From a virus: a stretch of DNA of 53,153 bases. Both the position numbers and the translations under genes were made by a program. Location: the IMG/VR virus record IMGVR_UViG_3300048590_000075, positions 1 to 53,153 of that record; one strand, given 5' to 3'. Below are positions 26,813 to 28,961 of this stretch, piece by piece (position 1 is the first letter of the stretch; every line of letters starts with the position of its first letter). The notes beneath the pieces are model-generated. The model made no database searches and had not been told where the DNA came from. It saw only the letters and a program-made list of their open reading frames with translations.

Positions 26813-27048
26813 CAGACATTTCCGATCCGCTGACCGACGCGGATGCGCGCATCCGCAGTGCGCTGTGGGCGGCATGGCACGCGCTGGACAACATTGCCGA
26901 AGCGGCGGCGCACACCGTCGGCCAAGTCAGGATCGGCCCGGACGGCGAGGGCCAGGACTTCGCGGACGATCTTGAGGCGATCCGCGACGAAGCTAGCGCC
27001 GCCAGCGCCGCGATCAATGCGTTGATGTACCCTGGAGAGGCGGCATGA
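26809..27048 (+). CDS. Small helical protein
   Basis: 79 residues from ATG 26809 (ATGA). Helical throughout, Ala-rich, acidic (DPLTDADARIRSALWAAWHALDNIAEAAAHTVGQVRIG). No family recognised. Its stop overlaps the start of an 18-codon methylase relic. Confidence 0.65.
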   Translation: MTDISDPLTDADARIRSALWAAWHALDNIAEAAAHTVGQVRIGPDGEGQDFADDLEAIRDEASAASAAINALMYPGEAA

Positions 27049-27101
27049 GCGCCCGTGTCCTGATAGCGTGCGAAACCAGCGGGATCGTGCGGGAGGCATG
27101 A
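27045..27101 (+). pseudogene. 18-codon relic of a second methylase-type gene
   Basis: ATG 27045, in an ATGA overlap, reads [18 protein letters not shown] and then stops. This is the usual N-terminus of a phage DNA methylase-like family (VLIACE.SG.VR.AF.A.GH). The next gene starts at 27098 inside it. I read it as the stump of a gene that was replaced by recombination with the cytosine methylase now present. It may still be translated as a coupling leader. Confidence 0.6.
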
Positions 27102-28423
27102 CGAATGTGGTGCTACGTCCCAGAAACGGGCTCTCCCTCTGCGCAGGCGGCGGAGGCCTGGATATGGGCCTCATGCTCGCAGAGCCCGGATTTCACACCC
27201 GCTGCTTTGTCGAGTGGGAGGAATACCCCCGAGACGCCCTCATCGCCGCCCAGCGGGCCGGATACTTCGCGCCAGCCCCGATATGGGATGACCTCACCAC
27301 ATTCAACGGACGGCCATTCCGTGGCGCATTCGACACCATCCTTGCCGGATACCCGTGCCAGCCATTCAGCCATGCCGGGCAGCGGCGGGGCCACGACGAC
27401 GAGCGCCACCTGTGGCCCGACGTTGCCCGGATCGTCCGGGAAGTCGAACCGGAATGGGTATTCCTCGAAAACGTCGCCGGGCATGTCAGCCTCGGCGCAG
27501 AGACCGTGCTGCGAGAGCTACGAGAAATGGGTTTCACGCCTGCGGCTGGCCTCTTCTCAGCGGCTGAGACAGGCGCGCCGCATGAAAGGCTCCGCTGGTT
27601 CTGCGTGGCCCACCGCCGCCACGCGGGACCATCACGCGCAGGGGGCTGGGCACAACACGGCAGCGCAATCCGACAGTCTGGCGACGATGGTCGAGGCGAA
27701 GTGGCCCACGCCGATGGCGGGCACCCCGGCGCAGAACGGGAACAGCGCGGCGGGGAGCAGCGACTTCAGCCGGAAGGCGGAGGAGTTGGCGCGGGCGATG
27801 TGGGGCACCCCGCGCGCATCGGACGCGGAGAAGGGCGGGCCGAACCAGGCATTCGGAGCGGGCGGGACGCCCCTGCCGGCACAGGCAGCGCAATGGCCCA
27901 CTCCGATGGCCGGAACGCCAGCACAGAACGGCAACAGCGCGGCGGGGAGCAACGACTTCACCCGGAAAGCCGACCTTCTGGCGGCGGGTGTGCTGGCCTC
28001 GTCATGGCCGACGCCAGCGGCGCAGAACGTGAAGGGCAGTTCCGAGGGCAGCATCACGCGCGCGGATGGCAAGTCAAGGATGGACATCCTGCACTACCGC
28101 GCGGAGCAGGGCTTTTCCCACCCGGCCCCGGAGACGCAGCCGCATGGGCGGCCGTCCTCCGATCCTCGCCAGACATGGCGCCGGCTGCGGCGGCTCGTGA
28201 TCTCCACGCATGGGCGCGCCGTCTGGAAGCGGATGGCCGCGAGTGGTGGCAAGCGGAGGCTGAACCCGCTTTTTGTAGAATGGTTGATGGCCTTTCCCAT
28301 AGGTCACAGCCTTTGCGGCTTCTCGGGAACGCCGTCCACCCCCTCACCGCCGGCCTTGCATGGCGATCACTCGCCGCAGCGCACGGCCTCCAGCCAATCG
28401 ACCTCGGAGGAACTGAACGATGA
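27098..28423 (+). CDS. DNA (cytosine-5)-methyltransferase, mosaic or frameshifted
   Basis: 441 codons from ATG 27098. The catalytic half is intact: motif [15 protein letters not shown], motif [13 protein letters not shown] (catalytic Cys), motif VI ENV and motif VIII-like [12 protein letters not shown] by residue 170. The end carries [10 protein letters not shown] and [19 protein letters not shown], like motifs IX-X. The part between about 27603 and 28310 is doubtful in this frame: a duplicated segment shows that the frame one base further on was the conserved one. So the protein may have a scrambled recognition domain, or the locus may need a frameshift. The role would be protection from restriction. 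Confidence 0.65.
27603..28310 (+). pseudogene. Conserved alternative frame within the cytosine methylase locus
   Basis: In this frame the DNA reads [14 protein letters not shown], two copies of [33 protein letters not shown] and [23 protein letters not shown]-type repeats and the FVEWLMGFPIG-type end are hallmarks of the variable C-terminal half of phage cytosine methylases. Copies at 27702-27779 and 27894-27971 differ at 11 of 78 bases: 9 changes are silent in this frame and only 1 is silent in the frame of the long ORF. The junction with the catalytic half (FCV in one frame, AWP in the other, over TGCGTGGCC) looks like a small frame-changing deletion. Confidence 0.65.
27702..27971. repeat. 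Duplicated 78-bp segment in the methylase locus
   Basis: Copy 1 is 27702-27779, copy 2 is 27894-27971, both starting TGGCCCAC and identical at 67 of 78 positions. The copies are 192 bases apart, a multiple of three. The pattern of silent changes identifies the reading frame in which they diverged. Confidence 0.9.
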
Positions 28424-28842
28424 TCGAGAAGACGTGCGCCCACTGCGGGGCGACCTTCCAAGCGGAGAGGGCGAGAAACAGATTCTGCGGGAAGCCGTGC
28501 CAGCACGCGGCGTCGAGGTCGGGAAAAGGCTACGTCCAGACGAGCGAGGGACTGGAACACCGGCTGGTCATGGAGGCCCATCTTGGCCGCAAGCTGCGCC
28601 GCGACGAGCACGTCCACCACAGGAACGAGGACAAGAGGGACAACCGTATCGAGAACCTGGAGTTGCTGACGGTTCGGGAGCACGCGAGTCTGCACAAGTC
28701 GAAGCACCCGAAGACGAAGACCTGCGTCGTCTGCGGCGAGACCTTCATCCCGCATCCGGAGACCCGAGGGCGGGTCAAGACGTGCTCGAAGGTCTGCCGC
28801 TACAAGTCGCAGGCGCGGTCGATGCTCGCGCGAGCTTCCTGA
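28420..28842 (+). CDS. HNH endonuclease with zinc fingers (third; inserted in methylase locus)
   Basis: 140 residues from ATG 28420 (ATGA overlap with the methylase ORF). An N-terminal [22 protein letters not shown] knuckle, the nuclease motif [38 protein letters not shown] and a C-terminal [25 protein letters not shown] knuckle are seen. This is the usual architecture of a free-standing homing nuclease. The gene sits between two parts of the conserved alternative methylase frame, as if it had entered that gene. Confidence 0.88.
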
Positions 28843-28961
28843 CATGGCGGCGGCACATGCGTGGCGCACTTTGTCGGCTGCCCACGGCCTCCGGTGCGTG
28901 GATATGGGCGCCGCCGAAGGAGATGCCGAAGCCGGTGCAAATCGAGATGTTCGGAGGATGA
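28833..28961 (+). pseudogene. Separated C-terminal piece of a methylase-type gene
   Basis: The frame reads [42 protein letters not shown] and stops at 28961; it is the same frame as 27603-28310. In relatives I recall, such a WR..MRGAL..LP...G.WIW tail follows shortly after FVEWLMG.P.GH. Here about 520 bases, including the HNH gene, come between. No start codon of its own is evident, so it is probably not made as a separate protein. Confidence 0.55.

Follow-up and report, generated by a model that had tools for sequence, protein, structure and literature searches.

Two overlapping same-strand reading frames appear to encode the subunits of a phage cytosine methylase

Two Open Frames Divide the Parts of a Methylase

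A C5 cytosine methylase locus in IMG/VR virus record IMGVR_UViG_3300048590_000075 appears to encode a two-subunit phage enzyme from two same-strand genes that overlap almost completely, a reading to which we give a probability of roughly 0.8. The window, by which we mean the whole stretch of DNA analyzed, is 53,153 nucleotides long. Within it, a 441-codon ORF (frame A) would encode a subunit that we term alpha. Frame B lies one base further on (+1), is open for 618 codons and covers the whole of frame A, and would encode a second subunit, beta. The features of the locus, all on the plus strand, are as follows.

27091–27096, plus strand: GGGAGG, Shine-Dalgarno-like by its sequence, with a spacing of 8 nt to the frame-B ATG, 1 nt to the frame-A ATG and 10 nt to the frame-A GTG
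27098–28423, plus strand: alpha ORF, a predicted C5 cytosine methylase with motifs I–VIII and X (PF00145, E = 2e-32; phrog_363 over residues 21–438)
27105–28961, plus strand: beta ORF, +1 to alpha, with conserved N-terminus, WPTP modules, motif IX-like segment and displaced tail (phrog_27243 and phrog_1008; ATG and open frame in relatives)
27105–27179, plus strand: conserved N-terminus of beta, 25 residues (constrained in both frames over its first 24 codons; frame-B pN/pS 0.59)
27131–27169, plus strand: motif I, frame A (invariant columns in the alpha alignment)
27347–27364, plus strand: motif IV, catalytic GYPCQP, frame A (invariant in the alpha alignment; the profile matches M.HhaI)
27572–27610, plus strand: motif VIII, frame A (the same DNA is constrained in frame B too in relatives)
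27606–28100, plus strand: WPTP-type modules of beta, starting at 27606, 27702, 27801, 27894 and 28005 (pN/pS in relatives 0.14 in B and 2.86 in A)
28254–28295, plus strand: motif IX-like segment of beta, 14 residues (invariant columns in the beta alignment; in-frame counterpart in single-chain methylases)
28322–28342, plus strand: motif X LGNAVHP of alpha, overlapping beta (both frames constrained)
28391–28844, plus strand: inserted segment carrying an HNH endonuclease gene, near motif X (absent by BLAST from the closest relative, L192)
28420–28842, plus strand: HNH endonuclease gene (PF13392, E = 6.6e-13)
28830–28961, plus strand: displaced original 3′ end, comprising the beta tail (39 residues, frame B) and the old alpha tail AAAHAWRTLSAAHGLRCVDMGAAEG (frame A), identified by comparison with L192

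The PF00145 match of alpha spans residues 22–185 and takes in motifs I–VIII, with PCQ (IV), ENV (VI) and motif VIII in order (P86 C87 Q88, E124 N125 V126 and R164/R166 are invariant), and a conserved motif X of the GNxVxP type (LLGNAVHP) lies in the same chain. The recognition region and motif IX are found in frame B and not in the alpha chain, such that alpha differs from a single-chain C5 methylase (PF00145). Frame B matches phrog_27243 (E = 6.5e-64), whose function is unknown, and also phrog_1008, which is annotated as "DNA methyltransferase". Motif IX of beta was assigned by sequence pattern and by its single-chain relatives, not by a PF00145 profile match. The initial annotation, made from the letters of the window, was thus right to place the catalytic motifs and a motif X-like end in the first frame, and right to see WPTP repeats and a segment of the kind found in methylase C-terminal halves in the +1 frame. 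AlphaFold models of alpha (pLDDT 48) and of beta (pLDDT 54, no clear fold) are too weak for fold searches, and a search of solved structures with a beta profile gave no match.

The same annotation had drawn attention to two 78-bp copies, 27702–27779 and 27894–27971, which both fall within the WPTP-type modules. Direct comparison of the copies yields 11 differences, and our recount is identical to the original one: ten change the residue in frame A and one is silent, compared with nine silent and two residue-changing in frame B. All 11 are residue-changing in the third frame. If about 25% of random changes are silent in frame B, at least nine silent differences among 11 are expected by chance with P = 1.1e-4. 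Third-position GC between 27600 and 28300 is also higher in frame B (0.81–0.91) than in frame A (0.59–0.69). When the window is compared with L192, its best relative (85% DNA identity), pN/pS over the N-terminal part is 0.21 in frame A and 2.8 in frame B, and over the unswapped modules (27801–28252) it is 1.48 in frame A and 0.45 in frame B.

Both Frames Are Kept Open in Relatives

More than 150 viral and bacterial loci have both frames open in the same layout. Against the prospect, raised at the outset, that frame B might lack homologues, its relatives are encoded by 79 viral contigs. Nearly all of these also have an open frame A that contains motifs I and VIII and a GNGVHP motif X, the last of which starts 65 nt after the frame-B motif IX-like segment in nearly every case. 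The complete layout was recovered by strict patterns in 66 of 80 bacterial genome loci, mostly prophage-like and from Rhodobacterales. Some genomes hold several copies of the two-frame locus; that of Yoonia vestfoldensis has four (L205, L212, L213 and L217), whose module sets may differ.

Stop codons are depleted in both frames well beyond what the coding of the other frame would impose. Between motifs VIII and IX of 66 loci, frame A has one stop where synonymous shuffling of B predicts ∼122, and frame B has none where shuffling of A predicts ∼116, while third-frame stops match expectation; because the loci are related, albeit diverse, these totals are not independent. Across motifs I–VIII of 123 distinct loci, frame B again has no stops (∼146 expected), compared with 315 in the third frame (352 expected). 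In a control gene, the +1 frame is only mildly depleted (199 stops versus 247 expected), and the synonymous-shuffle null over-predicts stops in that gene by ∼20–45%, far below the depletion seen here.

Selection Changes Frame along the Gene

We mapped selection in each frame over 46 independent pairs of relatives (83–97% identity), with pN/pS computed from simple counts, uncorrected for multiple hits, and a fixed transition weight. The mid catalytic region is constrained in frame A only (pN/pS A 0.14, B 2.78) and the modules in frame B only (A 2.86, B 0.14), so that in the modules silent sites favor the second frame and not, as the initial annotation had weighed as the contrary outcome of such a per-frame comparison, the first. 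Three zones are constrained in both frames. These are the first 24 codons of B (A 0.42, B 0.59), the zone of motif VIII (A 0.23, B 0.83) with the 18 codons before it (A 0.38, B 0.86), and the interval from motif IX to motif X (A 0.52, B 0.28). Values for the FPPGPGD stretch leading to motif IX are 0.55 in A and 0.74 in B, and those after motif X are 1.08 and 0.48. In zones that are low in both frames, changes silent in a single frame are reduced, and those that change the residue in both frames are the rarest. The frame switch between the window and L192 is the same as that seen across relatives. Each frame is thus carried along passively where the other works, with short shared zones constrained in both.

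A whole-region average had given frame B as unconstrained before motif VIII; finer regions reveal its constrained N-terminus and the constrained zone at motif VIII. The headline claim of the initial annotation, that the locus was selected in a frame other than that of its long intact ORF, stands only for 27610 to ∼28150.

Neighboring Start Codons and the Making of Beta

Downstream of GGGAGG, the starts in the window follow in the order alpha ATG (27098), beta ATG (27105) and an alternative alpha GTG (27107), the last of which overlaps the beta ATG (ATGTG). Of the 123 distinct loci, 94% have a frame-B stop at −473 and 93% an ATG at −470; the frame is then open to motif VIII, and exactly this beta start is annotated in two phage records (MWLYIP and MWLYVP). 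Initiation at two neighboring starts, rather than frameshifting, is what we infer from this arrangement; in the window, the spacing of the start codons favors beta. Two later beta starts were considered and discarded, as conservation begins at the upstream ATG: one at ATG 27582, and one at the ATG inside WPTPM, which is also without a Shine-Dalgarno site. A short ORF (27045–27101) ends at the alpha start with an ATGA overlap, is present in L192 as well, and looks like the truncated beginning of a different phage gene.

Ribosomal frameshifting was among the options listed in the initial annotation. A programmed +1 shift close to motif VIII would fuse motifs I–VIII of frame A to the modules and motif IX of frame B, with unshifted alpha supplying motif X. 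Such a mechanism could account for the switch of selection at motif VIII, a zone constrained in both frames, for the frozen synonymous codons nearby, and for the position of the modules in 79 distant loci found with an Arthrobacter phage protein, where they are +1 to the methylase domain in 71 cases and in the third frame in none. However, a fusion needs neither the beta ATG conserved in 93% of the 123 loci, nor a constrained beta N-terminus, nor a frame B open across all of motifs I–VIII, and programmed frameshifting presumes a second frame without a start of its own, whereas frame B has one. Moreover, frame A stays open through the modules with its motif X conserved, the frozen codons are explained by the frame-B residues they encode, and no slippery site shared between the families was seen. 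Frameshifting is thus unneeded, and we regard it as unlikely.

Beta Resembles the Target-Recognition Half of a Methylase

Some relatives carry all of these parts in one chain. Among the 79 loci found with the Arthrobacter phage protein, seven scored as having the modules in the same ORF as the methylase domain; two of these (L148 and L131) were confirmed by full reading, and the Pfam match covers L129 and L136 too. L115 was set aside because its frame had been misassigned, and L140 appears to be a similar case. L148 and L131 hold PF00145 motifs I–VIII, PTP modules, a RLNPELTEWMQGLP or RLNAAIVEWLMGLP segment and motif X in a single ORF, and both match phrog_1008, as does frame B of the window. 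They thus resemble the window in catalytic domain family, modules, motif IX pattern and motif X, and differ in having everything in one frame and chain, except that the first module after motif VIII of L131 is still +1. This last trait is shared by the actinobacterial single-chain loci L125, L136, L123 and L109, whose subsequent modules lie in frame 0; the +1 module of L125 ends in a stop codon just ahead of an in-frame ATG. In another contig (L160, 16.8 kb), an integrase-like ORF is immediately followed by a single ORF with modules, motif IX and motif X, and a methylase catalytic domain was not found in the contig. Arthrobacter phage Lymara has a split methylase: gp76 carries motifs I–VIII, and gp77, read in the +1 frame, carries the modules together with IX and X. 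Because the same modules, IX and X occur in single-chain ORFs and in the Lymara split, beta looks like the recognition region and motif IX of a methylase.

The arrangement recurs in epsilon15-type methylases from phages of E. coli, Salmonella, Klebsiella, Pseudomonas, Burkholderia, Edwardsiella, Aeromonas and Xanthomonas. As in the window, alpha occupies one frame and WPTP modules with QLNPAHSRWLMGLP the +1 frame, with the same selection switch (modules pN/pS A 2.24, B 0.25) and no stops between motifs VIII and IX in either frame (46 expected in A, 18 in B). Unlike in the window, the catalytic domain belongs to another family, the N-terminus differs, and beta is nested, its frame opening inside alpha, ahead of motif IV.

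Conceivably, frame B instead encodes a real protein that is not a methylase subunit and was overprinted on an ordinary monomeric methylase, given that the beta model has no clear fold. Yet in single-chain methylases the stretch from motif VIII to motif X contains, in frame, both the modules and the RLNPxFVEWLMGLP segment, and alpha has no constrained recognition region between motif VIII and the FPPGPGD stretch, being unconstrained over the modules (pN/pS A 2.86). We consider this possibility even less probable than frameshifting.

An HNH Gene Interrupts the End of Beta

Relative to L192, the insertion near motif X adds a net 501 nt (167 codons), such that both frames stay in phase. On either side of the insert lies a 47-nt stretch, and both stretches are homologous to one L192 sequence. 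The extra bases hold the HNH gene and a second, diverged copy of the alpha 3′ end; the alpha 3′ end provided by the insert is recoded, and alpha stays complete. The old beta tail at 28830–28961 is still in frame, and codons just after motif IX are degenerate. Beta of the window copy may therefore be altered, its end interrupted by the insertion. Although the insertion in the beta end and the degenerate codons could suggest a frameshifted, mosaic or decaying methylase, as the initial annotation had also allowed, we reject that reading, since both frames are open and conserved from Rhodobacterales prophages to phages of E. coli, Salmonella, Pseudomonas and Burkholderia, with the layout intact under purifying selection in many independent loci.

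A Putative Two-Subunit Enzyme

True dual coding, the remaining option of the initial annotation, agrees with these results, in a form that is not uniform along the gene. Alpha would be the catalytic large domain, comprising motifs I–VIII, a stretch that needs only to stay open, and then motif X. Beta would begin with a short conserved N-terminus and continue as a free linker across the alpha catalytic region, after which come the WPTP modules for recognition, then motif IX and finally a tail. With starts within ∼10 nt behind one ribosome-binding site, ribosomes could begin in either frame, making slippage unnecessary, and alpha and beta would then join into one enzyme in which beta provides target recognition in trans. 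Translation of both frames, assembly of a heterodimer and methylation are predictions from the sequences. It is also possible, although we hold this only tentatively and think it more probably wrong than right, that phages swap the modules as dual-frame cassettes and that, with beta acting in trans, co-resident prophages could mix alpha and beta to create new methylation specificities.

If the two-subunit reading is true, the locus is a rare case of same-strand genes whose overlap is long, ancient and widely distributed and whose division of labor can be read off, and sequence catalogues mostly miss one subunit of a phage methylase family. The layout would also explain why such loci are annotated as one protein, the other, both, or pseudogene halves. 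The copy in E. coli Ec1117 (L187) is annotated as two pseudogene fragments, and only frame B is annotated in Roseicitreum plasmid pRA03 (L275) and in phages PMG1 and P (L183 and L083). The system would further offer a direct test of how phage methylation specificity varies, and a natural counterpart of the split methylases employed in tools for targeted methylation.

Comparison with Known Two-Polypeptide Methylases

A literature search on two-frame methylases found M.EcoHK31I and M.AquI, and no report of an overlap of the window type. M.AquI is a two-polypeptide C5 methylase specific for CYCGRG, and the two ORFs of M.EcoHK31I (YGGCCR) overlap in different frames. In M.AquI, one polypeptide carries motifs I–VIII and the other both IX and X (PMC3404938). 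The window is similar in keeping I–VIII apart from IX, and differs in that its motif X lies in alpha and not with IX; the gp76/gp77 pair of the Arthrobacter phage (L081) looks M.AquI-like. In M.EcoHK31I, motifs I–VIII and X are in one, larger polypeptide, to which the recognition domain is also assigned, and IX is in the smaller (PMC3404938). The window has the same partition of I–VIII and X from IX, its motif IX being assigned by pattern. Compared by plan, it departs from M.EcoHK31I in that several modules are present and are selected in the smaller beta rather than in the larger chain, and in that beta spans nearly all of alpha, a far greater overlap. By motif order, the plan of M.EcoHK31I is the closest to that predicted for the window.
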